Shown here: positions 46,861 through 63,773 of the stretch, in pieces
Numbering within the stretch: the first letter of the stretch is position 1
Layout: each line of letters starts with the position of its first letter
Assembly (NCBI RefSeq): GCF_026157085.1
Contig: NZ_JANPVN010000001.1
Span: 2,136,001-2,200,000, forward strand
Direction of reading: 5' to 3'
Origin: Sphingomicrobium arenosum
GTDB lineage: Bacteria > Pseudomonadota > Alphaproteobacteria > Sphingomonadales > Sphingomonadaceae
Length of the DNA stretch: 64,000 bases
The notes under the pieces: generated by a model
The model's input: only the letters and a program-made list of their open reading frames with translations
The model's database searches: none
What the model was told of the DNA's origin: nothing
Position numbers and translations under genes: made by a program

Positions 46861-47601
46861 CTAGAGGAAGGATGCGCTGGCGAGCGTGACGGCGAAGGCC
46901 GCCGCCGCCAGCGCGCTTCCCAGCGGATATTCGCGCCCCGCGTCGCGATGCGCGCCGGTGAGGAGCGCGACCGCCAACAGCCCCGCGCTCGCGACCAGCA
47001 GGATCGGGGCGAGCAACCACCAGCCGGTCCAAAGGCCGATGGCGCCCATGAGCTTCGGATCGCCCGCGCCCATCCCTTCCACCCCGCGCAGGCGCTGGTG
47101 AAGAAGCCGCAGCGCGGCCAAGAAAGCGAATCCCACCAGTCCGCCGATCAGCCGATCAGGCAGCAAGGCGCCGCTTGCGAACGTGCCGAGCATCAACCCG
47201 GCGAGCGCCAGCAGCAGCACCAGGCGATCGGGCAACCATAGATGGCGCGCATCGATCCAGCCGAGCGGAAGCAGGATCCAGCCGAACAATGCGATCGACC
47301 CGGCCTGCGCCAAGGGCAGCAGCGCCGCGCTCGACGCGCCGATGGCGGCGGCGACCAGCTCGATGGCGAGATGCTCGCGGGCGATCGGAGCGCCGCAATG
47401 ACGGCAGCGACCGCGTAGCGCGAGGTGACTGAGGATCGGGACGAGATCGAGGGGCCCGAGCGGGACATCACAGGATTCGCAGGCCGAGCGGCCCTCGAGC
47501 GCCGAGCGGTCGTCAGGAAAGCGACGAACGATCGTGGCGATGAAGCTACCGACAATGGCACCAAGGACGGCGCCGCCAAGGACGAGTAGCGCGTGGCTCA
47601 A
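46861..47601 (-). CDS. gspO: Prepilin peptidase GspO
   Basis: The 246-residue membrane protein cleaves and N-methylates the T2SS pseudopilins. The cytoplasmic loop has two CxxC pairs (CESC, CRHC) typical of full-length prepilin peptidases. The catalytic aspartates lie in WIDARHLWLPD and GMGAGDPKLM. About seven helices are visible. It is the last gene of the gsp operon, overlapping gspN by 4 bp and ending 3 bp from the convergent DUF4167 gene. Confidence 0.93.
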   Translation of the reverse strand: MSHALLVLGGAVLGAIVGSFIATIVRRFPDDRSALEGRSACESCDVPLGPLDLVPILSHLALRGRCRHCGAPIAREHLAIELVAAAIGASSAALLPLAQAGSIALFGWILLPLGWIDARHLWLPDRLVLLLALAGLMLGTFASGALLPDRLIGGLVGFAFLAALRLLHQRLRGVEGMGAGDPKLMGAIGLWTGWWLLAPILLVASAGLLAVALLTGAHRDAGREYPLGSALAAAAFAVTLASASFL

Positions 47602-48308
47602 TCGAGACGGCCGGCGACGCGCAGCGACCAGCCGGCATCACCCCGGGCGAAGCCATAAGCTGCCAGCGCCTCGCCGAGTGCGGGTGGGGCGCCGCTGATG
47701 GTGACGATCGTCTCCAGATTGCCCTCGGCATCGAGCGCGAGCTCGACCTCTTCGGCGCCGCGCGGGCCGCTCAACAGCGCCACCACGCGACCGTCCTCGG
47801 CGCAGGAAACGGGGCCCGACAGTTCGCCGCCCAGAAAGGCGATGGCAGCGGCGGGAATGGCGGTGACGGTGCCCTGCGCCTGCTTGCAGCCCCCGGTATC
47901 GAACAGGGCGTCGACGCGGTCGAAGCGGAGCGCCTCGATCGGCAGGGGAGCGACCAGACCGGCGATGGCGACGCGGCCGTCGAGGCTGGCAACGCCTTCC
48001 GAAGGGCCCGAGAGGAAGAAGCGGCCGCTCAAGGGACCGTCGGGATCGCCGAGGCGTTCGACGGCGACTTCGGTGCGGCCGATGACCAGCGGCAGCGGGC
48101 GCAAGGCGACATCGAAGCTGCCGAGCCGTTCGCGCCCGAGCATCGCATCGCCGATCCGGCCCGACCAGACGCTGCCCGCGACCTGCCGTGCCGAGAGGAG
48201 CGAGGATTGCCCCAGCGCCATGTCCATCGCGAGGCGGAGCGGGAAGAGGGTGACGAGCGCCACCGCGAACACCACGACCGAAAAGAGGATCCAGCGCCGC
48301 GTCATCAT
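47598..48308 (-). CDS. gspN: Type II secretion protein GspN
   Basis: The 236-residue protein has one N-terminal membrane helix (RWILFSVVVFAVALVTLFPL) and a periplasmic domain with GSVWSGRIGDAMLG, typical of GspN. It is not required in all T2SSs. It overlaps gspM and gspO by ATGA junctions. Confidence 0.85.
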   Translation of the reverse strand: MMTRRWILFSVVVFAVALVTLFPLRLAMDMALGQSSLLSARQVAGSVWSGRIGDAMLGRERLGSFDVALRPLPLVIGRTEVAVERLGDPDGPLSGRFFLSGPSEGVASLDGRVAIAGLVAPLPIEALRFDRVDALFDTGGCKQAQGTVTAIPAAAIAFLGGELSGPVSCAEDGRVVALLSGPRGAEEVELALDAEGNLETIVTISGAPPALGEALAAYGFARGDAGWSLRVAGRLD

Positions 48309-48778
48309 CTTGCCCTCGCCAGCACAAGGTCGACCTCGACCCCGCCTTCGCCATTGTCGGTGAGACGCATGGCCTCGATCGCGACCCCGGCAGCGGTCAG
48401 CTGGCCGATCCAGGCGAGCACGGCGTCGGCGCGCGCCTGCGCGATGGTGACCTGCGTGCGATCGTCGCCGCTGGTGACGTTGCTGGTGAGCGCGAAGCCC
48501 GCCTGTGCGGCAGAGGCGGCGACATAATCGCCGACCGGCTGGTCGATGCGGCTGGTGCCTGCGCCGTTGCCGCCGTCCAAATCCTCGGCGAGCAGGCGGG
48601 TGCGACCATAACGCTCGCTCGCTTCGAGATAATGGTCGCGCGCGCCGTCGTGCCAGCCGAGCGCCGGGGCGATGAACAGGAACCAGGCGAGGATCGGGAC
48701 GGCGATGAGCGCCATCACGCCGAGCATCACCTGTTCACGGCGGCTGCGCGCGCGGTACCAGTCCGTCAGCGGGCTCAC
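48305..48778 (-). CDS. gspM: Type II secretion protein GspM
   Basis: The 157-residue inner-membrane protein has a cytoplasmic start (SPLTDWYRARSRREQVML), one helix at about 20-40, and a ferredoxin-like periplasmic domain. It partners with GspL. It uses GTG 48778 overlapping the gspL stop (GTGA); the longer open frame upstream is only a shadow of gspL. Confidence 0.85.
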   Translation of the reverse strand: MSPLTDWYRARSRREQVMLGVMALIAVPILAWFLFIAPALGWHDGARDHYLEASERYGRTRLLAEDLDGGNGAGTSRIDQPVGDYVAASAAQAGFALTSNVTSGDDRTQVTIAQARADAVLAWIGQLTAAGVAIEAMRLTDNGEGGVEVDLVLARAR

Positions 48779-49875
48779 GCGCCACCTCGCATCGTCAGAT
48801 CGACCGCTGCGCGCCCATCGCCGCCGGCGACCGGATTGGCGGTGACGATCCAGCCGCGCTGCTGGAGCGTGAGAAGAACGCGGTTGACCGCGGCACTGTC
48901 GGCGGAAACCAGCCGGGCGCTGAGCGTGCCACTGGCGTTCCAGTCGATCATGCCCGCCTCGACGCCGACCTCGGGCTGCATTGCGGCAAGCAGGCTGGCG
49001 ATCATCTGGGTGGCGTCGGCGCGGGCTGCCCCGCCGCTGCCGAGCGCGGTGCGCAATTCGGCCTCGGCGGCCTCGGCGGTGACCGGGCGGCCCAGCGCCG
49101 CGGTGGCGATGGCGGCGGTTTCGCGGTCGAGCGCGCCGGCCTCGGCATCCCACTTGAGGGCCTTCGCGACGGGAATGGCGATGGCGGCCAGCAGGATCAG
49201 CCCGACGAGGATCGCGAATTCGCGCAAGCGCTTGGGATCGGGCTTCCAGCGCCGCACTCGCGCGAAGCGGCCTTGGCGCAGGTCGATGGGCACGCCGTCT
49301 TCGAGGTTGGCGAATCGATCGAGGAGTGCCTCATTGTCGAGGCTATGGACGAAGTCGTCGCCCACCAGCGCGGCCATGAGCGCGGGGTCGTCGGGCATGG
49401 CGAGCCCGTCCTTCGCGATCACCTTGTGCGGGCCGAAGCGAGCCTCGTGCCAGTCGCCGTCGCGCGGCAGGAGGGCGGCGGCGGGGACGATGCGGTCGAG
49501 CGCCACGTCCTGCACGGTGGCCCAGTCGAGCCAGCCTTGCATCCGCGCGGCATCCGTAGTGGCGATCCAGCCAGCCGTCGACGTCGCGGCATGGGGGTCG
49601 GCGCCCAGCGCCTTGTCCTCGGCCTGCAAACGCGCCGCCGTGCGCGCCTGCGCGCTGGCCAAGTCGTCGGGATCGCGCGCTTCGAGCCGGACGTCGGCGG
49701 GACCGACGAGGCCGATCGTCGTGACGGGCTCGCGGGCGCGATCGGCGCTGCGCGGCAGCCAGCCGCTGTCGGTGCCATGGGCGAGGAGGCGGCCATCGGC
49801 GACCTCCCACCAGGGGCAGGCGGCAGGTGCGTCGGCGCGGCCCGGCAGCCATAGGAGAAGCGCGCGGCCTACCAT
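48775..49875 (-). CDS. gspL: Type II secretion protein GspL
   Basis: The 366-residue protein has an actin-like cytoplasmic domain that recruits the GspE ATPase, a membrane helix at about 225-243 (FAILVGLILLAAIAIPVAKAL) and a periplasmic ferredoxin-like domain ending the protein. It overlaps gspK by 7 bp and gspM by 4 bp. Confidence 0.88.
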   Translation of the reverse strand: MVGRALLLWLPGRADAPAACPWWEVADGRLLAHGTDSGWLPRSADRAREPVTTIGLVGPADVRLEARDPDDLASAQARTAARLQAEDKALGADPHAATSTAGWIATTDAARMQGWLDWATVQDVALDRIVPAAALLPRDGDWHEARFGPHKVIAKDGLAMPDDPALMAALVGDDFVHSLDNEALLDRFANLEDGVPIDLRQGRFARVRRWKPDPKRLREFAILVGLILLAAIAIPVAKALKWDAEAGALDRETAAIATAALGRPVTAEAAEAELRTALGSGGAARADATQMIASLLAAMQPEVGVEAGMIDWNASGTLSARLVSADSAAVNRVLLTLQQRGWIVTANPVAGGDGRAAVDLTMRGGA

Positions 49876-50834
49876 GTGCTGGTCCAGCGGCGGGCGTGGA
49901 GCAGCGCGCGGTCGTCTTCCACCGAAAAGAGCGCTTCCTGCCGCAATTCCCCATCCCCTTCGCCGACCCGCGTCACGAGCCGGAAAAAACGTGTCTCAAC
50001 CGCCACCTGCGCATCGCGGCCCTGGTTCGGCGTGATACCGCGCAGGGGCCCCGTCTGCCAGAAGTCGACCACCGAGCCGTAGCCGCCCCGGGGGCGTGCT
50101 AGCAACTGGGCACGTGCCGCACCGAGGCTGATCTGCTCGGGATCGAGCATGGCCAGCAACGCGGCGCGGTCAGGGGAGAGCGTTTCCACGTTGATCGTGA
50201 CAGGGTCGTGACTGGGCAGCGCGCACAGCCAGGGGCGGAGCATGGCCCAGGTCGCGGCGTCCATGCCCTCGATGGCGGCGAGTTCATTGGCACTGGCGAG
50301 CGCGCGATTGGGGACGGGGTCGCCATTCGCGAGGCGTTCGTTACCCAAGGGTCGCGACAACAGGTCGCTGTCGACCGCATCGGCGGCAGCATCGGCGAGC
50401 TGCTGTGCGCGGCTTTCGGGCAGGCCGAGCAGCGCGAGAAAGTCGCGGAACAGGAAGACGCGGCGCGCGGTCGCCTGCAATTCGCCCGATGCCCGGCGGC
50501 GAGCAAGCGCATTGACGTTGAAGCAGTTGGTGCCGTCCTCGATGCGCGCGCGCACGATTTCGCCATCGGGCAGGGTGATCGAGCGCTCGACCCCGAGGAG
50601 CGCGGCCTGGTCCCCGCCCGATAGCTGCGCGGCCTCGATGAGACGGGCGGCGGCGAGGCTTTCGGCCATGGCAAGCCATTGGCGGCCCTGCGTGGCGACC
50701 TGCGCATTGCCCGCGAGACGGGTCGACAGGCTGAGGCGATCCAATGCGGTCGCGGCGATCGCGGCCATAACGGCGACGATGAGCAGGACAGAGAGCAGCG
50801 CGGTGCCCTTTTCGCGGCGCGGGCGCCGGGTCAC
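49869..50834 (-). CDS. gspK: Type II secretion minor pseudopilin GspK
   Basis: The 321-residue protein is the large minor pseudopilin that caps the pilus tip. The prepilin leader REKG precedes the hydrophobic helix TALLSVLLIVAVMAAIA; the usual Phe and Glu5 are missing, as is normal for GspK. A large soluble domain follows, with the conserved CFNVNAL. GTG 50834 overlaps the gspJ stop. Confidence 0.9.
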   Translation of the reverse strand: MTRRPRREKGTALLSVLLIVAVMAAIAATALDRLSLSTRLAGNAQVATQGRQWLAMAESLAAARLIEAAQLSGGDQAALLGVERSITLPDGEIVRARIEDGTNCFNVNALARRRASGELQATARRVFLFRDFLALLGLPESRAQQLADAAADAVDSDLLSRPLGNERLANGDPVPNRALASANELAAIEGMDAATWAMLRPWLCALPSHDPVTINVETLSPDRAALLAMLDPEQISLGAARAQLLARPRGGYGSVVDFWQTGPLRGITPNQGRDAQVAVETRFFRLVTRVGEGDGELRQEALFSVEDDRALLHARRWTSTW

Positions 50835-51463
50835 GATGCGACCTCGATGCCGGTGCCCGCGCGCTGTTCGGCGCGGCCTTCGTAGGGACTGAGCGGGGGC
50901 AGCGCGACGATGAAGTCGGTGGCGGGCAGGCGCGGCGCGGTCAGGGTCAGGCGCACGGCGCGGGGGAGCGGGTCGCCCGAGGCGTCGGGCCAACTGTCGA
51001 CCCATCCGCCTGCTCTATCGCGATAGGCGAGCGTCATGCTGCCTAGCGGATCGATGAGGATGGCGTCGGGGAGGCGGGCATCGCCGCCATCCATGGCTTC
51101 GAAGGTCAGGCGTTTGAGGGCGCCGCCCTCGGCGATCCAGCCGGTCCGGCGAAGGTCGCTCGACGGCGCCTCGCCGAGCGCGATGACGCCCCCGCGCACG
51201 AACTGCATGCTGGTGGCGGTGCCGGTGAAGGCGGGGCGCGGCTGGCTGCTGGCATCTGTGGTGGGGCGGATGACGGCTTGCCCGAGGTCGGCCTCGAGGA
51301 GTAGGGCGATGCGTTCGAGCTGCGCCTGTTCGGACAGGCTGGTGTCGACCGCGGCTTGCGTGTCGGCGCTGGCGCGCAGCAGCCCCACGCCCGCGCTGGC
51401 GAGCAACGCGAAGATGGTGAGGCCGACGAGCATCTCGACCAGCGTGAAGCCGCCCTGCCGCAT
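50831..51463 (-). CDS. gspJ: Type II secretion minor pseudopilin GspJ
   Basis: The 210-residue protein has the leader MRQGG followed by FTLVEMLVGLTIFALLA, with Glu5 present. It forms the tip complex with GspI and GspK. The ATG overlaps the gspI stop by one base. Confidence 0.92.
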   Translation of the reverse strand: MRQGGFTLVEMLVGLTIFALLASAGVGLLRASADTQAAVDTSLSEQAQLERIALLLEADLGQAVIRPTTDASSQPRPAFTGTATSMQFVRGGVIALGEAPSSDLRRTGWIAEGGALKRLTFEAMDGGDARLPDAILIDPLGSMTLAYRDRAGGWVDSWPDASGDPLPRAVRLTLTAPRLPATDFIVALPPLSPYEGRAEQRAGTGIEVAS

Positions 51464-51831
51464 CAGCGCTCGATCCGCTTCACGGTGACGAGGCGCTTTG
51501 AGGGGCCGCCCGCCAGCGGGCGCGCGGTGATGGTGACGGCGAGAAAGCGCGGGTCGGGGGTGGGGGACACGTCGGTGATGACGGCGAAGGCCTGTCCGCC
51601 ATTGACGACCTGCTTCGAGGATTGGCCGCGTGTCGGGGCGGCAGGATCGGAGGTGACGAGCGCGGCCTCGTTGGCGGCGACGAGGCGGGCGAGGCCGTTC
51701 TCGCGCAGGTTCGCGGCGGTCGAGACGGCGTAACCGTCGATCCGCAGCAGCGCTAGCGCGGCGATCGAGAAGATGCTCAGGGCGACGAGCATCTCGATGA
51801 GGGTGAAGCCGCGTGTCGTCCGCATGGTCAC
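51463..51831 (-). CDS. gspI: Type II secretion minor pseudopilin GspI
   Basis: The 122-residue protein has the leader TRG followed by FTLIEMLVALSIFSIAALAL. GTG 51831 overlaps the gspH stop as GTGA; ATG 51825 two codons inside is an equally good start. It nucleates the pseudopilus tip with GspJ and GspK. Confidence 0.92.
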   Translation of the reverse strand: MTMRTTRGFTLIEMLVALSIFSIAALALLRIDGYAVSTAANLRENGLARLVAANEAALVTSDPAAPTRGQSSKQVVNGGQAFAVITDVSPTPDPRFLAVTITARPLAGGPSKRLVTVKRIER

Positions 51832-52298
51832 AGCGCCTCGACGCTGCCGTTGGCGGCAATGGCGACGGTCGCGGTGCGCCCTTCCGGATCATCGAGGATG
51901 AAGACGGTGGGGGCCGACGGCATGCCGAGATTGTCGAAGCGGAGCCCGAGGGGCTCGCCCGACGTGCGCGCCGTTACGCCATCGGCAAAGGCGGTGCGCC
52001 CGTCGAAACGGTTCGAATCGAGTGGCACCCATTCGCCCTGACGATATTGTTCGAAGGCGAATCCGGCAGGGGAGACGCTGAGCCCGGTGGGATTGCCGCG
52101 CAGGATCGCCTCGTCGCGCAGTGCCGCGATACGCCCGGCGAGCATGACGGCCTCCGAGCGCGCGGCATCGGCGGGGCGCATGGTCAGCACGACCGCGGTC
52201 GCGGCAAGGCCGAGGAGGACGAGCACGACCATCAGTTCGACCAGCGTGAAACCGGCAGAACGAGGTGGGTGCCTCCTAGCCGGCGGTGATGTCGGCAT
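51828..52298 (-). CDS. gspH: Type II secretion minor pseudopilin GspH
   Basis: The 156-residue protein has the leader PPRSAG followed by FTLVELMVVLVLLGLAA. ATG 52298 overlaps the end of gspG by 23 bp and gives a 17-residue leader. Longer readings run inside gspG and are unlikely. Confidence 0.88.
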   Translation of the reverse strand: MPTSPPARRHPPRSAGFTLVELMVVLVLLGLAATAVVLTMRPADAARSEAVMLAGRIAALRDEAILRGNPTGLSVSPAGFAFEQYRQGEWVPLDSNRFDGRTAFADGVTARTSGEPLGLRFDNLGMPSAPTVFILDDPEGRTATVAIAANGSVEAL

Positions 52299-52713
52299 TC
52301 TCGCCTTCGCCGCCGGGCGCGCCGTCGGCGCCCATGCTGTAGATCTCGTAGGGGCCGCCGTCGGGAGCGGGGATGCGGATCTGATAGGGATTGCCCCACG
52401 GATCGTTGGGAATGTCGCGGACATAGCCGCCGGGGCGATAGCGGTCGGGCTGGGCGAGGCCGGCGGGCGGGCTCTTCAGCGCCTCGATCGAAGCGGGAAA
52501 GGCGAAATTGTCGATCCGATACTGCTCGGCGGCATTTTTCAGCTGCGCGATGTCGGCCTGCGCCTTGGTGACATTGGCCTTGTCGAGGCTGGGGAGCACG
52601 TTGATCATGACGACGGTGCCGAGCAGGCCGATGATGACGATGACGACCATCAGCTCGACGAGGGTGAAGCCGTTCTTGCGCTTCTTGGCGCCGTTGGCGG
52701 TGGGACGGGTCAT
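52276..52713 (-). CDS. gspG: Type II secretion major pseudopilin GspG
   Basis: The 145-residue protein has the leader KKRKNG followed by FTLVELMVVIVIIGLLGT. The C-terminal part has the calcium-site region DPWGNPYQ and GGEGENADI of major pseudopilins. It assembles into the periplasmic pseudopilus that pushes substrates through GspD. Confidence 0.95.
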   Translation of the reverse strand: MTRPTANGAKKRKNGFTLVELMVVIVIIGLLGTVVMINVLPSLDKANVTKAQADIAQLKNAAEQYRIDNFAFPASIEALKSPPAGLAQPDRYRPGGYVRDIPNDPWGNPYQIRIPAPDGGPYEIYSMGADGAPGGEGENADITAG

Positions 52714-52716
52714 GAC

Positions 52717-53945
52717 TTATCCGATCAGGGTCTGCAGTTGGAGGATGGGCATCAGGATGGCGAGCACGATGGCGGCCACCAGCGCCCCCATGATGATGAT
52801 GATAAGCGGTTCGAGCAAGGCCAGCGCGCTGCTCGTGAAGGTGTCGAATTCGCGCTCGAGATAATCGGCGGCCTGCGACAGCATGGGGCCGAGCTGGCCC
52901 GCGCTTTCGCCGCTGGCGGTGAGGTGGACGAGGAGCGGCGGGAAGAGGCCGGTGCGTTTCAAGGCGCCCGACAGGCTGCCGCCGCCGCGAATCTCTTCCT
53001 CCATCGCCCGCGTCGCAGCAGCGAGACGGCGGTTGGAGATGGTGCGCGCGGTGAGCGCGAGGCCCTCGACCAGCGGCAGCCGCGCGGCGACCATGGTGGC
53101 GAGCGTGCGCGCCATGCGCGCGGCGTTGAGATCGCGCAGCAGCCGCCCGAAGAAGGGCAAGCGCAACAGCCAGCTGTCGAATTTCAGGCGAAAGGGTTCG
53201 TTGCGAAGCATCGCGCCGAGCAGCGCGACCGCGCCGAGGATGAGGAGGCCGAGGAGCCACCACCAGTTCGCCAGGAAGTCGGACAGCGCGATGACCACGC
53301 GGGTGATGAAGGGGAGCTGCTGGCCGACGTCCTCGAACTGTTCGACGACTTTTGGGACCACCGCGATCATCAGCGCGGCGACGACGCCAATGGCGACTAG
53401 CGTGAGGACGGCGGGGTAGGCGAGCGCGCTTAAAAGCTTGGAGCGCATCTGCGCCTGGCGTTCCTGCAAGGCGGCGAGGCGGTCCAATTGTTCGGACAAG
53501 GTGCCCGAACTCTCGCCCGCCGCGACCATCGCGCGGTAGAGCGGGTCGAAGCTTCGGGGTTCGCGGCCCAGCGCATCGGCGAGACGGCGACCCTCGACGA
53601 CCTGGTCGGCGACGCGGTTCACCACCGCGCGATGTTCGGGCTTTTCGGACTGGCGCGCGATGGTGCGTAGCGCTTCTTCCAGCGGCGAGACCTTGATGAG
53701 GGTCGCCAGCTGGCGGGTGAAGAGGACGCGCGCCTTGGCATTGAAATGCTTAGCCCGCGACAGGCTGATCTGCTTGGCGCCGACGCCAACGCTCGGCGCT
53801 GCCTTGTCGGCGGCGGTCAGGCGAACGGGCAGCAGGCGGCGCTTCTCGAGCGCGGCGCGGGCTTCGGCCTCGCTGCCCGCGTCGATCTGGCCGCGCTTTT
53901 CACGGCCCTTGGCGTCGACCGCCAGATAGGCGAAGCGAGCGGCCA

Positions 53946-53946
<1 letters not shown>
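52717..53946 (-). CDS. gspF: Type II secretion inner-membrane platform protein GspF
   Basis: The 409-residue polytopic protein has two repeated GspF domains (about 75-195 and 275-400) and three helices near 170-190, 225-245 and 380-400. Conserved pieces are TRQLATLIKVSPLEEAL and PPLLVHLTASGESAG. It overlaps the gspE stop at its start. Confidence 0.95.
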
Positions 53947-55546
<1,600 letters not shown>

Positions 55547-55550
<4 letters not shown>

Positions 55551-57694
55551 TCCTCGCCCTCCAGCGGTTCTCCCGTCTGCGAGGCGGGCAGCTCCACCAC
55601 GGCGGGCGGACGATAATATTGATCACCGGGGGCAAGCGGCGCGGCGACCGGCGCGGCGGCACCCAGATAGTCGCGCACCAGCGCGTCGAGCGAGGGCTCG
55701 TAGCCCGGATTATTGTACCATTGCGCGGTGCGCATATAGTCGTAGCGGCGCGCGGTCATGGCCCGCGCATCGGCGGCATCGCGGATGATGGTCGGGCGAA
55801 TGAAGACCATGAGATTGGTCTTGTTGCGCGCCCGGCTGCGCGACTTGAACAGTTCGCCCAGGAGCGGGATGTCGCCGAGGAGCGGGATCTTCTCGATGGT
55901 CTTGCGCTCATTTTCATCGAGCAGCCCGCCGATGGCGAGGATCTCGCCGTCATCGACGGTCAGCACGGTCTTGAACTCGCGCTTGTTGATGACGAGATCG
56001 GCCGAGCCTTGCGCGACCGGTCCCGCGACCGAGCTGACCTCCTGGCGGATGAAGAGCTTGATCGAGCCCGAGCTGTTGACCTGTGGCTTCACGTCCAGCT
56101 GGATGCCGACATTCTGCCGCTCGACGGTGCGGAAGGCGTTGTCGAAGTTGGAGGAGAGGGCCTCGCCCGTGGTGATCGGCACTTCCTGGCCGACCAGCAA
56201 GCGCGCTTCCTGATTGTCGAGCGTGAGGATCGACGGGGTCGAGAGGATGTTCGATTCGGTGTCCGACTGGACCGCGTTGACGATGGCACCGAACAATGCA
56301 TTGCCCGCAAGGTTGACGACGCCCCCCGCCAGCCCGCCGGTGGTGTTAAGGAGCGAGGCGGCGGCGGCCTCGTTGACGCTGTCGCCAAGCGGATTGTCGT
56401 AGGTGGTGGTCACCACCCCGTCCGAATTGACGCTGGTCTCGCGGCCCAGTTCGTAATTGGCGATGGCACCGCCGACCGCGAGGATATTGGGCTGGGCGTT
56501 CGAATAATTGGCGGCGAGGAAGGGCGAATTCTCGCCCGCGAGCAGGAACTGGACACCGAGCTGGCGCGCGGCATTGTCGCCGATCTCGACGATGATCGCC
56601 TCGACCAGCACCTGCTCGCGGCGCGTGTCCAGCTGGCGAACGATCTCGCCGATCTGGCGCTGCACGTTGGAATTAGCGGCGACGATGATCGCATTGGTGC
56701 CCGAGTAGCGGGTGACGACGGCGGGGCCGAAGCGGGCAATGCCGTTGTTCGTCGTGCTGACGGTTTGCGTCATGGCGGGTTGGGCGGGCGGCTGCGCCGG
56801 GCCGGCGCCCGTGCCTTCGCCTTCCTGCCCGCGGATGAAGCCGGGTTCGGAGGAGGTAACGGTGACCGGCTGGCCGAGCAGCTGCTGGAGCACCGGAAGC
56901 AGCGCCTCGGCATCGGCATGTTCGAGCCAGTAGATGCGGATATCGTTGCCGCCAGCGGCCTGTGCGTCGAGTTCGCGGGCGAGCGAGGCGTAGCGCGCGA
57001 CGCTCTCGGCGGGGCCGCGCAGGGCGAGGCCGTTGGCGCTGTCGATGGCGCTGACCTGCACCGGGGCGGCGATGCCTTCGTTGCCGCCGTTGAGGCCCTC
57101 CAATGCCTCGGCGACTTCGCGTGCGCCGGCATTTTCCAGATAGACGATATCGGCGGTCGAATTGTCGGTGTCGATGCGGCCGATGAGATTGCGGATGCGC
57201 ACGACATTGTCGGCATAGTCGGCGACGATGATCGAATTGGCGTTGCGATTGGCGGTGATCGAGCCTTCCGAGCTGATCAGCGGGCGCAGTGTCTCGATGG
57301 CACCGGCGGCCTCGACCGTTTCGAGCCGGAAGATCTCGGTGACGAACTGGTTTCGTGCCGCGCCGCGCAGGCCGCCCGTGGGCTGGGTCGCGGCCCCTTG
57401 CGCCGGCTGGATGCGATAGCCCCCCTGGATGGGAATGGCGACGAGCCCATTGGCGCGCAGCGTGGCGAGAAAGACCTCGAAATATTCGGACCGCGACAGC
57501 GAGCGGTTGGTCACGACGCTGATCGACTGGTTGACGCGGCTGTCGACGACGAAGGTGAGGCCCGTCACGCGGGCGGCATCGTCGACGAAGGCGCGCACGT
57601 CGGCCTCGCGGAAATTGAGCATATATTGCGCGCTCGCCACCGAGGGCGTGGCGGCCATGATGCAGGCGGCGGTGAGGAGGGCGAGACGCTTCAT
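55547..57694 (-). CDS. gspD: Type II secretion outer-membrane secretin GspD
   Basis: The 715-residue protein has a signal peptide (ends VASA) and an N0 domain starting YMLNFREADVRAFVDDA. N1-N3 repeats follow (VRIRNLIGRID, RQIGEIVRQLD). The secretin channel domain has VEAIIVEI, NILSTPSILTLDNQEA and VGQEVPI. It ends with a C-terminal tail of about 60 residues after the channel, a possible pilotin-binding S domain. It forms the 12-15-mer outer-membrane channel. Confidence 0.97.
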
Positions 57695-57710
57695 GACGAT
57701 ATGCCTTGTC

Positions 57711-58529
57711 TTACAGGTTGACCGCGATCGGCACGGTCTGGGCGCCGCGCTCGACCATCAGGCGAATGCGGGCGGCGGGTTTCAATGAGGATTTCAACTG
57801 GTCGATGTCGGCCTGGCTGTCGACGGGGACGTCGTTGACCGAGACGATGACGTCGCCGGCGCGCAGCCCGATGACCGACAGCAGGGCGGGATCGGTGGTG
57901 ATGGGCAGGCGGATGCCGGTGATCTTCCCCCCGGTGCGGCGCGGTTCGAATTCGAAGTCGGGGATCATCGCCTGCGCGGCGGCTTCGGTGCCGGCGGCGG
58001 CGCTGCTGGTATCGGGCACCTCGATCGTATCGGCGGGCAGCGCGCCATCGAGATAGAGCATCTCGCGTACGCCGCCGCGGTCGAGCACGACATGGTCGAA
58101 GGCCACCTCGGCGAGGCGAACGCCGGGGGAGACTTCATCGCCGACGGCGAAGCTCTGCTGCACCCCGTCCTCGCCCGCAATGATCGCGCTGCCCGTCCCC
58201 GCGCCGCGATTGAGGAGGGTGCCGAACAGCTGGAGATCGAGATCGGTAACGCTCTCGCCCCCCGCCGCGACAGTGGCCGGGGTGCCGGGGAAGGGATCGT
58301 AGCTCGACAAGAGGGCATCGCGCGCGCCGTCCGACAGGAAACGCGGTGCCGCGACGCGCCAGTCGCCGAGCGGCCCAACGGGGGTGACGAGCACCCACAA
58401 AAGGCGTGCAAGCAACGCGGCGAGGATGGCGATCAGGCAGGCGCGCGCGATCAGGTGCAGCTCGGCAAAGGCGAGCCGGTCGCGGCGCCCGGGACGGGCC
58501 TTGAGAATCGAAGCGAACATTGATGCCAT
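57711..58529 (-). CDS. gspC: Type II secretion protein GspC
   Basis: The 272-residue protein is the first gene of the gsp operon. It has one membrane helix at about 28-50, a homology-region domain at about 90-160 (LQLFGTLLNRG, VQQSFAVGDEVSPGVRLAEV) that binds GspD, and a C-terminal PDZ domain (GLRAGDVIVSVNDVPV). It links inner-membrane platform and secretin and helps select substrates. A row of GTC half-sites lies 36-71 bp upstream of its start. Confidence 0.92.
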   Translation of the reverse strand: MASMFASILKARPGRRDRLAFAELHLIARACLIAILAALLARLLWVLVTPVGPLGDWRVAAPRFLSDGARDALLSSYDPFPGTPATVAAGGESVTDLDLQLFGTLLNRGAGTGSAIIAGEDGVQQSFAVGDEVSPGVRLAEVAFDHVVLDRGGVREMLYLDGALPADTIEVPDTSSAAAGTEAAAQAMIPDFEFEPRRTGGKITGIRLPITTDPALLSVIGLRAGDVIVSVNDVPVDSQADIDQLKSSLKPAARIRLMVERGAQTVPIAVNL

Positions 58530-58562
58530 TCCCGCTGGATTTCCTAGCGATGATCGGGACTT

Positions 58563-58602
58563 GTGACTCTATGAAGACATGATTTTGACGCAAATGCGAC
58601 AA
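58563..58602 (-). promoter_or_regulatory. Tandem Pho-box-like array upstream of gspC
   Basis: On the minus strand, TTGTCGC-ATTT-GCGTCAA-AATC-ATGTCTT-CATA-GAGTCAC holds four 7-bp units separated by 4-bp A/T-rich spacers. The GTC triplets begin at 58600, 58589, 58578 and 58567, exactly 11 bp apart. The PhoB consensus is two CTGTCAT-like 7-mers with a 4-bp spacer, so this looks like two adjacent Pho boxes. It ends 33 bp before the gspC start, leaving room for a -10 element and the AGGAAA ribosome binding site. Confidence 0.65.
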
Positions 58603-58603
58603 G

Positions 58604-58646
58604 AAAAGGGGTCGGACGCCGCATCCGGCCTCCGACCCCTCTTTTT
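58604..58646. terminator. Bidirectional terminator after the TonB-dependent receptor
   Basis: AGGGGTCGGA (58607-58616) pairs with TCCGACCCCT (58631-58640), with an inner GCCG/CGGC extension across one mismatch. TTTTT follows on the plus strand (58642-58646) and TTTT on the minus strand (58607-58604). It ends the receptor transcript just before the gspC promoter region. Confidence 0.8.
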
Positions 58647-58659
58647 GGCAGACCTGTTG

Positions 58660-61419
58660 CTAGAAGGTCAGCGAGGCCGACAGCGAATAGGTCGTGCCCC
58701 GATCATAGGTCTGGATGAGCAGCTCGCTGTCGTTCAGCGTCTGCACCTCCTCATAATCGGTGCCGAGGATGTTGCGCACCTCGGCCTTCACCTCGAGCTC
58801 CTTCGAGCCGACCTCGAACCCCTCGCGCCAGACGACGTCGAGGTTCACCCCGGGGGTCTCGATATAGTCGGGCGTGCCATTGGGACCGCGCGCAGTGACG
58901 CGGTCGGACGCGTAGGTCAGGAGAATGGTCTGCTGCGACAGGCGCTCCTCGTTCTCGAGGCCGAGTTGCAGGTTGACGAGATGCTCCGACTGCCCCGTCA
59001 GCGGCGCGCCATCGTTGAAGATCGAACTGGCAAGCGTTTCGGCGGGCTGGCTGACGAAGCTGATCGTGGTGTCCTCGGGCCCCACCACCAGTTCGGACTG
59101 GGTGTAGGTGTAGTTGGTGATCAGCGCGAGGCGACGATCGGCAAGGAAACCGCTGTCCATCCCCATGTCGTAGAAGGGGAGATATTTGCGGAATTCCAGC
59201 TCGGCACCATAGAGCCGCGCCTTGGGGGCGTTGGCAAAGCTGGTGATCGAGAAGGAGCCGATGTTGGTCGCGGTCGATTCGATCGGTCGGTCGATCTCCT
59301 TGTAGAAACCGGCGAGGCTGACGATCTGGTCGCGCGCGAAATAATATTCGTAGCGCGCATCCAGGTTGAAGATTTCGCTGTCGGTGAGGAACTGCGAGCC
59401 GAAGAAGGTGCGACCGCTTTCGTAATCGACGAATGGCTGCGGCGCGAGTTCGCGGAACTGCGGGCGGGCAATCGTCTTGGACGCGCCGAAGCGCAGCTGC
59501 ATGTCGTCGGCGAAGTTCCAGGTCAGCGTGCCGGCGGGAAGCCAGTAGCTGCGCTCGAGGCTGGTCTCCGCCGCCGGGGTCTCGCCGAACAGGGTGACCG
59601 GGGTCACCGTCTGGGTGCCGTCCTCGTAGCGCACGCCGATGTTGAGCAGGATGTCGCTGGCGGGCTCGACCTCGAGCATGCCGTAGACCGCCTGCGTCTC
59701 GAGCGCCGCCTGATAGGCCGCGGTGCCGAGGCCGCCCGTCGTCTCGCGCAACGTGATGTCGCTGGTGTGGACGTTATAGTCGCTCAAGAGATAGTCGATG
59801 CGCTGCTGGGCGATATAGTCGGGCAGCGCGGCGAGCGGGAAGAAGTCGAAATCGCGGCGGATCGCCTCGCGGCTATTGTCCGAATAGGCGTAACCGACCG
59901 ACGCCGTGATCGGCATGGCGGTGGGCAGGTAATAGGCAAGGTCGACCGCGCCGTACCACAGCTCGTCGTCCAGTTCGGAGAAGCTCAGCGTGGCCGAGTT
60001 GCCCGGCGAGCGCAGGTCATTGACGTAATCGTCGAACTCGGTGCTGTAGACATAGCTGTAGGCGCGCTCGTACGGCGCGTCGCGGCGCGACTTGGCGTAG
60101 GACCCGCGCAGGTCGATATTGAGATCGCCTACTTCGAATTCGCCGACCGCCTGAACATCGTAGAGTTCGCGTTCGAAATAGCTGGTCGCGCCCTGCTGGA
60201 GCGTGGGGTTGTCGGGATCGATCTTCGAGATCGCCTCGAAGTCCTCGCCCGCCTTGATTTGTGCTTCCTTGAGCGCGTCGCGGATATAGACGCCGACGAG
60301 GCGCAGCTTCTGGTCATCCAGGCTGAAGGTCGTGCTCGCCATGCCGTTCACGACGACGCGGTTCTGGGTCGAGACGTAATCGAAGGTCTGTTGGGCGAAG
60401 AGTTCGGCATCGGGGGTGTCGACCGCGCCCAGTGCGACGCCGAATTCGCGCTTGCCCGCGCGGGTGCGCCAGCTGTTCGAGATGCCGCCGACGACGATGA
60501 CGCCAAGGTCCATCGCGCCGAGCTCGAACGTCTGGCCCGCGCCGAGGTCGGCCGACCAGTTGACCGGCACATCGTTTGTGCGCTGGATGAGGTTGGTCGA
60601 GGCGTTGTCGAGGCTGGCGGTCAGGTCCTTGATCTCATCGAGCGAGAAATTTTCGCCGCGGGTGATGCGATTTCCCGACGCGAAGGCGCTGGCCAGATTG
60701 GCGGGCAGCGAGCGATTGCCATCGTCATAGCCGAGGAAATCGGTCGAGCTGCCCCAATAAGTGTAGCCGAGGTTGAGGCTGGTCTCGCTGTCGTAGCCGA
60801 TCCCGCCGCCGACCGAGAAGAAGCCTTCGTCGGGGACCGAACGGGTGGTGAGGTTGATGACGCCGCCACCGAATTCGCCGGGATAGTTGGCGGAATAGCT
60901 CTTCTGGACGACCGTCGAGGCGATGATCGAGGTGGGGAAGAGGTCCAATGGGACGACGCGGCGGAGCGGCTCGGGGCTGGGCAGCGGGGCCCCGTTCAAG
61001 AGCGCCGAGCTATAGCGCTCCCCCAGGCCGCGCACATAGACGAAGCGGCCGCCGACGACCGACAGGCCGGTGACGCGCTCGAGCGCCGAGGCGATGTCGC
61101 CGTCGCCGGTACGGGCGATGTCCTCGGCCGACAGGACCGAGACGACTTCGGGCGTGGCGCGCACGGGGTTGGGAATATAGGTGCCGCGGATGATGATGGG
61201 ATCATCGTCGTCGCGGTCCGCGCCGGGGCCCGAGATCTCGACCTGTGGATCGCTCGCGCCCGGCTGGGCGGCGTCGAGGGTCTCGTCCTGCTGGTCTTCG
61301 GGGTCGCCGACCATGCTGGCAGAGGGCGAAGCGGGCGGGGCATCCTGCGCGAACGCGGGGGCCGCGGCGAAAAGCGCGGTGGTCGCGAGCAGGGCGGAAA
61401 GCGTGGCGGTCTTGGTCAT
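58660..61419 (-). CDS. TonB-dependent receptor next to the T2SS operon
   Basis: The 919-residue outer-membrane receptor has a signal peptide (AAPAFAQ at residues 19-25), an acidic linker, then DDDDPIIIRGTYIP at about 70-84. The plug domain has VVSVLSAEDIARTGDGDIAS and FVYVRGLGERYSS. A 22-strand-type barrel ends in the expected Phe (TYSLSASLTF). ATG 61419 is chosen; the frame extends upstream but without signal-peptide sense. It lies 89 bp after the ElpS-like lipoprotein gene on the same strand and is separated from gspC by a terminator. Co-regulation with the lipoprotein is likely; the ligand is unknown, phosphate compounds being a reasonable guess. Confidence 0.93.
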   Translation of the reverse strand: MTKTATLSALLATTALFAAAPAFAQDAPPASPSASMVGDPEDQQDETLDAAQPGASDPQVEISGPGADRDDDDPIIIRGTYIPNPVRATPEVVSVLSAEDIARTGDGDIASALERVTGLSVVGGRFVYVRGLGERYSSALLNGAPLPSPEPLRRVVPLDLFPTSIIASTVVQKSYSANYPGEFGGGVINLTTRSVPDEGFFSVGGGIGYDSETSLNLGYTYWGSSTDFLGYDDGNRSLPANLASAFASGNRITRGENFSLDEIKDLTASLDNASTNLIQRTNDVPVNWSADLGAGQTFELGAMDLGVIVVGGISNSWRTRAGKREFGVALGAVDTPDAELFAQQTFDYVSTQNRVVVNGMASTTFSLDDQKLRLVGVYIRDALKEAQIKAGEDFEAISKIDPDNPTLQQGATSYFERELYDVQAVGEFEVGDLNIDLRGSYAKSRRDAPYERAYSYVYSTEFDDYVNDLRSPGNSATLSFSELDDELWYGAVDLAYYLPTAMPITASVGYAYSDNSREAIRRDFDFFPLAALPDYIAQQRIDYLLSDYNVHTSDITLRETTGGLGTAAYQAALETQAVYGMLEVEPASDILLNIGVRYEDGTQTVTPVTLFGETPAAETSLERSYWLPAGTLTWNFADDMQLRFGASKTIARPQFRELAPQPFVDYESGRTFFGSQFLTDSEIFNLDARYEYYFARDQIVSLAGFYKEIDRPIESTATNIGSFSITSFANAPKARLYGAELEFRKYLPFYDMGMDSGFLADRRLALITNYTYTQSELVVGPEDTTISFVSQPAETLASSIFNDGAPLTGQSEHLVNLQLGLENEERLSQQTILLTYASDRVTARGPNGTPDYIETPGVNLDVVWREGFEVGSKELEVKAEVRNILGTDYEEVQTLNDSELLIQTYDRGTTYSLSASLTF

Positions 61420-61454
61420 CGGGAGATCTTCCGTGCGCGTCTTGTCGAACAATG

Positions 61455-61484
61455 GGGGAGCGGCAGCCCTGGCCGCCGCTCCCC
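61455..61484 (-). other. Intercistronic hairpin between lipoprotein and receptor genes
   Basis: GGGGAGCGGC (61455-61464) and GCCGCTCCCC (61475-61484) form a perfect 10-bp stem with a 10-base loop. Only a weak T-rich run (ATTGTTC) follows on the minus strand. It may act as an attenuator or as an mRNA-stabilising element that makes the lipoprotein message more abundant than that of the receptor. Confidence 0.6.
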
Positions 61485-61508
61485 GCATGTGGGTCCGGGT
61501 GCGGCGGC

Positions 61509-63074
61509 TTAGCCGGCGTCCGGGATGTCGAGGCAGCTCATCTGGCCGGTCAGGCCACAGGTCCAGCCGACCCACCAATCGTCGTTGGCGTCCTCGACCG
61601 CGCCGACATAGTCGACCGCGTCGAAGAAGCTGGCGAACTGGAGGTCGCTGTAATCGTCGACTTCGGCCGCCGCACTGGCGTTGACGAAATTCACCGCCGA
61701 GATCGAATAGGGCGAGGGCAGCGTGATCGAGCTGTCGTAGGTGGTGTTGCTGGTACCATCGAACAGCGCCGCGATTTCGGCGATCGAGACGCCGTCGCTG
61801 GCGCCCGAGTCATCCTTGAACGGAGTGGCGGTGCAATCGAGATAGACGCCCTTGATTCGCGGCGCGCCTAGTTCCTCGCCAAGACCCGTGGTCTCATCGA
61901 CCGTGTTCTGCTCGTCGAAGTCGATGCAGGGGCCGGTCGAGACGATGAGACCGTTGTACATCGCGATGTCGGCAGCGCCGCGAACGTGGACATATTCGCC
62001 GGTCCGCGGGGTGATGAAGGTAAAGTTGGCGATCTCGATGTTGGTGCGCGGCAGGAGCGCCTGGTCACCCGGCGAGTCGATTTCCATCAGCTTGTCGCCG
62101 CCGGTGTCGCGCTGGATCACGAGCGCATATTGGATCGCGCCCTTGAAGCCGTTGTCGGCGTCGATCGAATCATCGTCATTGCCGGTCAGGACCAGATACT
62201 TCTGGTTCACGCGGCCACCGAACCATTCGATGCCATCGTCCGAGCTGTTGTGCACCTGGACATGGTTGAAGGTCGTGCCCGACCCGACGCCCGCCAGCGT
62301 GATACCGTTCAATTCGCTGTTTTCGGCGGCCTTGTAGCCCGAGTAGCGGATCTGCAGATATTCGATCACGCCCGAATTGTCGGCGGCGTCGGTGCCGCCA
62401 TAAAGCGAACCGGCGGTGCCTTCAACCTGGAGGCCGCAGGGCGCGCTGGTGGTGCCGTCGCCGCAGCCTTCGGCCGGGGCCTGGCCGAGGATGACGAGGC
62501 CGCCCCATTCGCCGATCGAGTCGGCATTCGCTTCGCCGATCACGTTCGAGCGCGAGGTCAGGACGACCGGTGCGCTGGCCGTGCCCTGGACGAAGATCTG
62601 CGACCCGCGATTGACGACGAGGAAGTCGGCCTGTGTGCGGCCATAGGCCACGACGCCCGCATCGAAGGTGATGCTGCCGGCATCGCCGCCTGCGAGGTTG
62701 CCGTCGGCGCCCATATCCACGCCGACCTCGGTCTTGCCGCCGATCGTGTAGATGACGCCCGCGACATTCTCGACGAACAGGTCGTCGGTGATGAGCTGCG
62801 GGAGCTGGCAGATGCGACGATTGTCGCCCGAACCCGCGCCGCCCACTTCGATCGTGCCGAAGTTGGTGAAGCCGGTGGGGCAGGCGTCGGCCGCTTCGCC
62901 GCCGGTGCCGCCACCGCCGCCGCCACCGCCACCACCACCGGTGACCGGGGGAACGACGACGATCACGCCATCGCCGGGCGAGGCGACATCATCGGCGCCG
63001 CACGCCGACAAGGCGGCGCTGGCCGCGCCGAGAAGGAAAAGGTTACGAAGGGTCGTCGAACGCTTGGTCATCAT
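61509..63074 (-). CDS. ElpS-like surface lipoprotein with beta-helix repeats
   Basis: The 521-residue protein has a lipoprotein signal (LFLLGAASAALSACGAD), a Gly-rich linker (about 40-60) that would reach away from the membrane, and a domain with parallel beta-helix features. That domain includes repeated segments such as NGITLAGVGSG, FNHVQVHNSSDDGIEWFGG and KYLVLTGNDDDSID. Several cysteine pairs are present. It is not an enzyme I can name. The position in front of a TonB-dependent receptor and a full gsp operon resembles the elpS locus of Caulobacter crescentus, where ElpS is a surface lipoprotein made in phosphate starvation and released with T2SS help. Homology to ElpS is not proven here. 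Alternative ATG is at 63071. Confidence 0.75.
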   Translation of the reverse strand: MMTKRSTTLRNLFLLGAASAALSACGADDVASPGDGVIVVVPPVTGGGGGGGGGGGTGGEAADACPTGFTNFGTIEVGGAGSGDNRRICQLPQLITDDLFVENVAGVIYTIGGKTEVGVDMGADGNLAGGDAGSITFDAGVVAYGRTQADFLVVNRGSQIFVQGTASAPVVLTSRSNVIGEANADSIGEWGGLVILGQAPAEGCGDGTTSAPCGLQVEGTAGSLYGGTDAADNSGVIEYLQIRYSGYKAAENSELNGITLAGVGSGTTFNHVQVHNSSDDGIEWFGGRVNQKYLVLTGNDDDSIDADNGFKGAIQYALVIQRDTGGDKLMEIDSPGDQALLPRTNIEIANFTFITPRTGEYVHVRGAADIAMYNGLIVSTGPCIDFDEQNTVDETTGLGEELGAPRIKGVYLDCTATPFKDDSGASDGVSIAEIAALFDGTSNTTYDSSITLPSPYSISAVNFVNASAAAEVDDYSDLQFASFFDAVDYVGAVEDANDDWWVGWTCGLTGQMSCLDIPDAG

Positions 63075-63194
63075 TGGGTCTCCGCGTGGCGGTGGTTAGA
63101 CAAAGCCAGGGAGACAGGTGCGCATGACGCCGCGCCCGACCCCCCGATCCACTGCGGGACTAGGAGGCGCGATTTACGTCATGATGCAGGTTCG

Positions 63195-63278
63195 ATGACG
63201 CCGGATCGACGTTTTCGTGACGGACGCGATATGGCGGCGTGACAAGCGCATCGCCCCCACTTGACGCCTTTGTGACGT
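63195..63278 (-). promoter_or_regulatory. Extended Pho-box-like array upstream of the ElpS-like gene
   Basis: Minus-strand GTC half-sites begin at 63276 (GTCAC), 63265 (GTCAA), 63243 (GTCAC), 63221 (GTCAC), 63210 (GTCGA) and 63199 (GTCAT). All fall on one 11-bp lattice; the steps are 11, 22, 22, 11 and 11 bp. The best pair, ACGTCAC-AAAG-GCGTCAA, has the 7-4-7 form of a Pho box. The array ends 121 bp before the gene start. Confidence 0.65.
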
Positions 63279-63314
63279 GGCGGCGGTGGTGCCTGTAAAA
63301 GCGCGATATTCCGG

Positions 63315-63330
63315 CCGGTCCATGGACCGG
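63315..63330. other. 16-bp perfect palindrome
   Basis: CCGGTCCATGGACCGG lies 41 bp downstream of the thioesterase gene and 37 bp beyond the outer end of the Pho-like array. It could be a weak terminator stem for the thioesterase (no T run) or a dimeric repressor site. Confidence 0.4.
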
Positions 63331-63371
63331 GGCGCGGGTGCGGCGTGAAAGTCACGCCATCACGGGAAGCG

Positions 63372-63773
63372 TCAGTCCTGGCGGTCGTCGGGCTCGCTCG
63401 CCGAATCGACCGGCCGCGGGCGGGCGTTGGCGTCGATTGCGACAAAGGTGAAGGACGCCTCGGTCACCTTCACGTCGCGCGCGCCCCCGTCGCGGGTGGC
63501 GACGACCTCGATGCGGATGGTCATCGAGGTGCGCCCGACCCGCTCGACATCGGCGTAGACGCTGATCAGGTCGTGCAGCAGGATGGGGGCGATAAACTCC
63601 ATGCGGTCGATCGCCACGGTGGCGACCTGCCCGCGCGCGCGGCGCGCGGCAACGATGCCGCCCGCGATATCCATCTGGCTGAGCACCCAGCCGCCGAAGA
63701 TATGGCCGTTGGCATTGATGTCGGCGGGGCGCGGGACGACGCGCAGGATGGCCTGGAGACCGTCGCGGTTCAT
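63372..63773 (-). CDS. Acyl-CoA thioesterase, YciA-like hotdog protein
   Basis: The 133-residue single-hotdog thioesterase has the motif DINANGHIFGGWVLSQMDIAGG with the catalytic Asp (in MDIAGG), then VDRMEF-like AIDRMEFIAPILLHD. It hydrolyses acyl-CoA in the cytoplasm. Its start overlaps the next upstream gene by 4 bp. Confidence 0.92.
   Translation of the reverse strand: MNRDGLQAILRVVPRPADINANGHIFGGWVLSQMDIAGGIVAARRARGQVATVAIDRMEFIAPILLHDLISVYADVERVGRTSMTIRIEVVATRDGGARDVKVTEASFTFVAIDANARPRPVDSASEPDDRQD

Follow-up and report, generated by a model that had tools for sequence, protein, structure and literature searches.

The window, that is, the whole stretch of 64,000 nucleotides of Sphingomicrobium arenosum DNA analysed here, carries a type II secretion system (T2SS) operon of 13 genes in the order gspC, D, E, F, G, H, I, J, K, L, M, N and O, all in one direction. 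Pfam gathering scores are reached by all of the 13 genes except gspL (22.4 vs 29.6 bits), which was assigned by gene order. Where the starts are clear, the genes overlap or are separated by at most 16 bp. The thirteen-gene operon that the earlier note had placed behind a repeat array was thereby recovered from gspC to gspO. As judged by sequence search, GspC has one match in the 2.56-Mb genome, and gspC-gspO is the only T2SS operon found in it. In front of the operon lie a gene for a TonB-dependent receptor and, upstream of the latter, a gene for a predicted lipoprotein of 521 aa that has no Pfam or NCBIfam match. The features are listed below in the direction of transcription.

63173..63278, minus strand: second PHO-like array, in front of the lipoprotein gene, with units spaced by multiples of 11 bp
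61509..63074, minus strand: gene for the 521-aa predicted lipoprotein (lipobox by eye), upstream of the receptor gene
58660..61578, minus strand: TonB-dependent receptor gene, upstream of gspC
58604..58643, minus strand: terminator hairpin after the receptor gene, adjoining the array upstream (fold of 58598-58646)
58563..58602, minus strand: PHO-like array of four 7-bp units at an 11-bp period (sequence, pattern and matrix scans, conservation)
58602-58596, minus strand: array unit 1, TTGTCGC
58591-58585, minus strand: array unit 2, GCGTCAA
58580-58574, minus strand: array unit 3, ATGTCTT
58569-58563, minus strand: array unit 4, GAGTCAC
58542..58547, minus strand: candidate -10 hexamer CTAGGA
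57711..58529, minus strand: gspC (Pfam T2SSC), start probably 58520
55547..57694, minus strand: gspD, secretin
53946..55550, minus strand: gspE, ATPase
52717..53946, minus strand: gspF
52276..52713, minus strand: gspG
51828..52424, minus strand: gspH (longest frame; start probably further in)
51463..51831, minus strand: gspI
50831..51892, minus strand: gspJ (longest frame; start probably further in)
49869..51005, minus strand: gspK (longest frame)
48775..49875, minus strand: gspL (weak Pfam match below the cut-off; assigned by order)
48305..49153, minus strand: gspM (longest frame)
47598..48308, minus strand: gspN
46861..47601, minus strand: gspO, prepilin peptidase

The array consists of four GTC units placed exactly 11 bp apart (58602-58563) on the strand of gspC, and its 4-bp spacers (ATTT, AATC and CATA) hold A or T at 10 of 12 positions, so that the sequence is as it had been described. 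The array thus has the layout that characterises a PHO box, with 7-bp direct repeats in tandem and A/T-rich spacers of 4 bp, which makes units of 11 bp. The match to the CTGTCAT repeat covers only 17 of 28 positions, with 4 or 5 of 7 per unit, and the best match in the genus reaches 22 of 28 (the gspC array of locus L008). Since the ATG of relatives aligns with the fourth codon of the annotated frame, the true start of gspC is probably at 58520, not 58529, 42 bp past the end of the array.

On its upstream side the array adjoins a hairpin (-34.8 kcal/mol, z -6.4) that has a short stretch rich in T behind it; this bears out the proposed location downstream of a terminator. A simple terminator scan of 57600-63500 returned 0 terminators; it missed this hairpin because its rules (loop of 3-8, five T in eight) did not fit. 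The sigma70 scan of the minus strand found no consensus promoter in the same interval, including at gspC, and the Rfam search of the whole window gave no match.

Relation of the array to pst promoters

The promoters of pst operons are classical PhoB targets beyond Caulobacter. In Caulobacter itself, they are named as PhoB targets in an excerpt of PMC11208175. We built a 29-bp matrix on the promoters in front of the pst operons of 20 genomes in the genus, leaving out gspC; 19 of the sites were taken by pattern and one by hand. Among the 127,944 placements of this matrix in the window, the highest score (15.0) was obtained at 63195 on the minus strand, before the lipoprotein gene, the second (9.5) at 58563 on the minus strand, which is the gspC array, and the third (7.8) at 49613 on the plus strand. 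This rank, together with a shared pattern, indicates that the gspC array and the pst operon of this genus carry the same type of motif. The comparison with the array at 63195-63278 that had been suggested earlier thus showed the two arrays to be the top two matrix sites of the window, with the gspC array being the weaker one.

When both strands of the 2.56-Mb genome are searched, the pattern GTC(N8GTC)x3 occurs a single time, at the gspC array, and its reversed control does not occur; this uniqueness is partly due to choice, because the pattern was derived from the gspC array itself. The shared pattern GTCA-N7-GT-N9-GTCA has five matches in the genome (control 0), three of which lie before pstS, gspC and the lipoprotein gene. 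It is not independent evidence, since it was composed with the pst and gspC sites already seen. The other two matches look like chance; one lies inside a gene for histidine biosynthesis and the other close to an integrase-like gene, the two genes having been named by eye.

The pst promoter of this genome sits between a histidine-kinase gene at the position of phoR and a PBP_like_2 gene at that of pstS, and is followed by the PBP_like_2 gene, pstC and, about 3 kb after pstC, phoB. In the other 19 genomes phoR and pstS were named by position only, and the low score of one pst region (L091) is an artefact of its beginning 6 bp too late. A PhoB ortholog over the curated cut-off was found in 20 of the 20 genomes tested (333.8 bits here vs a cut-off of 296.2), and the ortholog of this genome matches solved PhoB chains, e.g., the DNA-binding domain 1gxp_A with 92.9 bits. 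At an E value of 1e-50 the PhoB model gives 3 to 5 matches per genome in all 20, but a single one exceeds the cut-off in each, which implies that PhoB paralogs exist in each genome.

The distance from the array to a possible -10 element was also compared between loci. Counted from the G of the last in-register GTC, a TA begins at exactly 16 nt in 15 of 19 gspC arrays from other genera, as against 0 of 10 arrays of the own genus (15/29 overall; the count omits the near-duplicates L116-L118, L120, L121 and L123 and all of L145-L184). At the gspC promoter studied here, the only TA within 36 nt lies at 22, half a turn off, and belongs to the candidate hexamer CTAGGA. The pst regions have TA at 27 or 28 in 14 of 20 cases, one turn beyond 16. 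The -10 boxes are degenerate here. The array before the lipoprotein gene has a -10 candidate, CTAGTC, in the usual phase after a further in-register GTAAA. The upstream regions of the lipoprotein gene reach a score of 8 in 15 of 18 cases (controls: 0/18 on the other strand and 0/18 downstream), and 12 of the 15 scoring arrays, that of the own genome included, have TA in the same 11-bp phase.

Distribution of the array in the genus and the family

A GspC match was obtained for 23 of 61 genomes (own included); within the genus there were 12 full-length matches and two further, weak partial ones. Ten of the 12 genus gspC upstream regions score at least 8 with the pst matrix, and no array was present in the remaining two (G018 and G008). 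When the unit columns alone were scored at these 12 loci, eight passed 8 at a spacing of 11, compared with one at a spacing of 8 and one at 10; the locus passing at 8 is the own region, which scored 9.6 there vs 8.9 at spacing 11.

A TonB receptor gene directly precedes gspC at seven of the 12 genus loci, and all seven have the array. The five loci without the receptor (G005, G018, G034, G008 and G010) have it in three cases. One of them is that of S. astaxanthinifaciens (G005), in which the 1.5 kb in front of gspC gave no receptor match and contain a thioesterase gene instead, and which has no match to the 521-aa lipoprotein. The array of this genome is identical to that of the own genome at 31 of 40 positions, compared with 10 of 40 in the upstream and 11 of 40 in the downstream flank. 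There is less contrast in G012, where the receptor is present (array 25/40, flanks 14/40 and 19/40). The retention of the array in S. astaxanthinifaciens without the receptor implies that it goes with gspC and not with the preceding gene.

The 521-aa lipoprotein was found in 8 of the 12 genus genomes with a GspC match and in 0 of 8 without one, with the GspC status being judged by sequence search only. Outside the genus it was found in 10 of the 10 genomes tried, among them one without a Pfam GspC match (G068). The protein is a candidate T2SS cargo.

In the Sphingomonadaceae sample, GspC was detected in 146 of 298 genomes and 46 of 91 genera. We scored 66 family loci, namely the 30 top matches plus one or more loci for every remaining genus, and arrays with a score of at least 8 were found at 41 of them, representing 23 of the 46 T2SS-bearing genera; in the sample, the other 23 genera have no gspC array over the threshold. 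The same regions reverse-complemented gave 4 of 66, and downstream regions 0 of 66. Scored by unit columns alone, 23 of 30 family loci reached 12 at a spacing of 11, compared with none of 30 at spacings of 8-10 and 12-15. Where a receptor match lies in front of gspC, 25 of 26 family loci have the array, compared with 16 of 40 where none does; by genus, the figures are 10 of 11 vs 13 of 35 (Fisher p 0.004, relatedness ignored). This distribution suggests that the family has T2SSs of a phosphate-linked type, often linked to a receptor as well, next to others, and that a presumed PHO-controlled T2SS is common but not universal in sphingomonads. Thus, the proposed comparison with other sphingomonad gspC upstream regions was borne out in the genus and in half of the T2SS-bearing genera sampled.

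At order level outside the family, three of eight scored loci reach 8, the partial hits L026-L029 being excluded from this count. At class level outside the family, none of eight scored loci (7 genomes) has an array, and one downstream control region reached 8.5; the Caulobacter case is therefore not confirmed by sequence. None of the three named Novosphingobium gspC loci scores.

Some loci deserve separate mention. In genomes with two T2SSs, the second gspC stayed below 8 at four of four loci (L179-L182), and the paralogous systems may be regulated differently. However, one of these loci (L180) and a primary locus (L184), both below 8, agree over two units with CTGTCAT-N4-CTGTCAT at 12 of 14 positions, which means that the threshold misses some two-unit boxes and that the split between paralogs is unproved. 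In the genus g92 (L167, L183 and L184), sub-threshold GTCAT/GTAAC units precede gspC with apparently mixed 10- and 11-bp spacings. A strong PHO-like site (24.6) lies on the strand opposite to gspC at locus L174 (G144), where it perhaps serves a divergent phosphate-regulated gene.

Proposed phosphate control of the T2SS operon and its alternatives

It is likely that the array is a PHO box before the T2SS operon, through which PhoB would turn on gspC-gspO in low phosphate. The earlier note had read the units as PhoB half-sites and had placed the whole secretion machine under phosphate control. This reading draws support from the fact that a motif derived from pst promoters finds the site, from the recurrence of the array before gspC (10 of 12 genus loci and 23 of 46 family genera) and from the PhoB ortholog encoded behind pstC in the same genome. 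PhoB control of the operon is therefore a well-supported proposal, but we infer the binding of PhoB, activation, the transcription start and the physiological role from sequence.

When phosphate is scarce, PhoR would phosphorylate PhoB, and PhoB~P would bind the 11-bp units head to tail along a single face of the helix (for the mechanism, see the excerpt of PMC4415409). The gspC array would offer room for two adjacent PhoB dimers, and these would bring sigma70 RNA polymerase to a promoter shortly before gspC and switch on gspC-gspO. The lipoprotein and TonB-receptor genes, with their own PHO array, would be co-induced and form a phosphate-scavenging island together with the operon. The main weakness of this reading is the atypical -10 spacing. 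The -10 element of the gspC promoter may have no TA, the geometry may be different in this genus, or activation may be weak. The finding that none of the 10 genus arrays has TA at the usual distance slightly lowered our confidence in the PHO box, which was marginally higher before.

The last of these options leads to the alternative that PhoB binds poorly to a weak box and that the operon is expressed mainly from another, phosphate-independent promoter. The low agreement with CTGTCAT and the genus-wide displacement of the -10 candidate speak for it, as does the fact that the Caulobacter operon responds weakly to poor medium (excerpt of PMC2996285). However, decay would not have left the array so much more alike than its flanks in the own genome and S. 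astaxanthinifaciens, the strong hairpin should limit read-through from upstream, and the sigma70 scan of 57600-63500 offers no consensus promoter on the minus strand for such expression; we regard this alternative as unlikely. It is similarly improbable, and in our estimate a shade more so, that the 11-bp GTC array is bound by another regulator of the OmpR/PhoB family, ChvI-like or similar, instead of PhoB. Proteins of this family such as ChvI also use direct repeats one turn apart, PhoB paralogs are present in all 20 genomes, and ChvI of S. meliloti is reported in an excerpt of PMC9731502 to act on GCC-N8-GCC, which has an equal 11-bp period. Nevertheless, the core of the array is GTC or GTCA and not GCC, so that the GCC-N8-GCC pattern is absent from it; moreover, the matrix that finds the gspC site was trained on pst promoters, and like sites are located before pstS, gspC and the lipoprotein gene. 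That the array is a product of chance with no regulatory meaning can practically be dismissed: the motif is short and was picked by eye out of a long window, but it is the single match of its pattern in the genome, ranks second with an independent matrix, and is backed by the family-wide conservation and the spacing control.

With PhoB control as the preferred reading, a broader scenario can be put forward, which we hold to be possible rather than probable. In about half of the T2SS-bearing Sphingomonadaceae genera, the T2SS might be a dedicated phosphate-starvation machine, forming one island with the PHO-controlled lipoprotein and TonB receptor; it would export the lipoprotein (or phosphatases) to the surface, and what is released would be imported by the receptor, whereas the T2SSs of the other genera would lack phosphate control. 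As a conserved PHO array would tell when the T2SS is made, its cargo should be sought in low-phosphate medium.

Comparison with known systems

Caulobacter and the sphingomonads belong to different orders. For the PhoB regulon of Caulobacter, the primary source is Lubin et al. (2016). The excerpt of PMC11208175 lists the C. crescentus T2SS among the PhoB-regulated genes; the sphingomonad case would thus add to a known type of regulation and extend it to another order. Our limited search of titles and abstracts retrieved nothing on a T2SS under phosphate control in sphingomonads, and PMC9123166, as far as its excerpt goes, treats PhoB of a Rhizobium. According to excerpts of PMC2996285, the release of the lipoprotein ElpS by Caulobacter in low phosphate is T2SS-dependent, gspE and gspL mRNAs rise only 1.7-fold in poor medium and a GspL fusion protein is unchanged. 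The same excerpts give the order cc0170-cc0171-gspC..N, i.e., a hypothetical protein, a TonB receptor and gspC onward, which is the order found here. The likeness is one of placement, with the TonB-receptor gene of the window occupying the place of cc0171 before gspC. The two loci differ in gspO, which has the opposite orientation in Caulobacter and is in line with the operon here.

As to the binding site, the PHO box described in excerpts of PMC3131613 and PMC4415409 has the same layout of 7-bp direct repeats and 4-bp A/T-rich spacers, whereas the four units studied here depart from CTGTCAT in two or three of seven positions each and the -10 distance is atypical. The Sinorhizobium ChvI sites in the excerpt of PMC9731502 resemble the array in being trinucleotide direct repeats with an 11-bp period, but their core is GCC instead of GTC, and ChvI is tied to the cell envelope and not to phosphate. 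The Hxc T2SS of Pseudomonas aeruginosa, which in the excerpt of PMC7035377 secretes the alkaline phosphatase LapA and is part of the low-phosphate gene set, offers a parallel; it differs in being tied to sigma-VreI together with PhoB and in belonging to another bacterial class.
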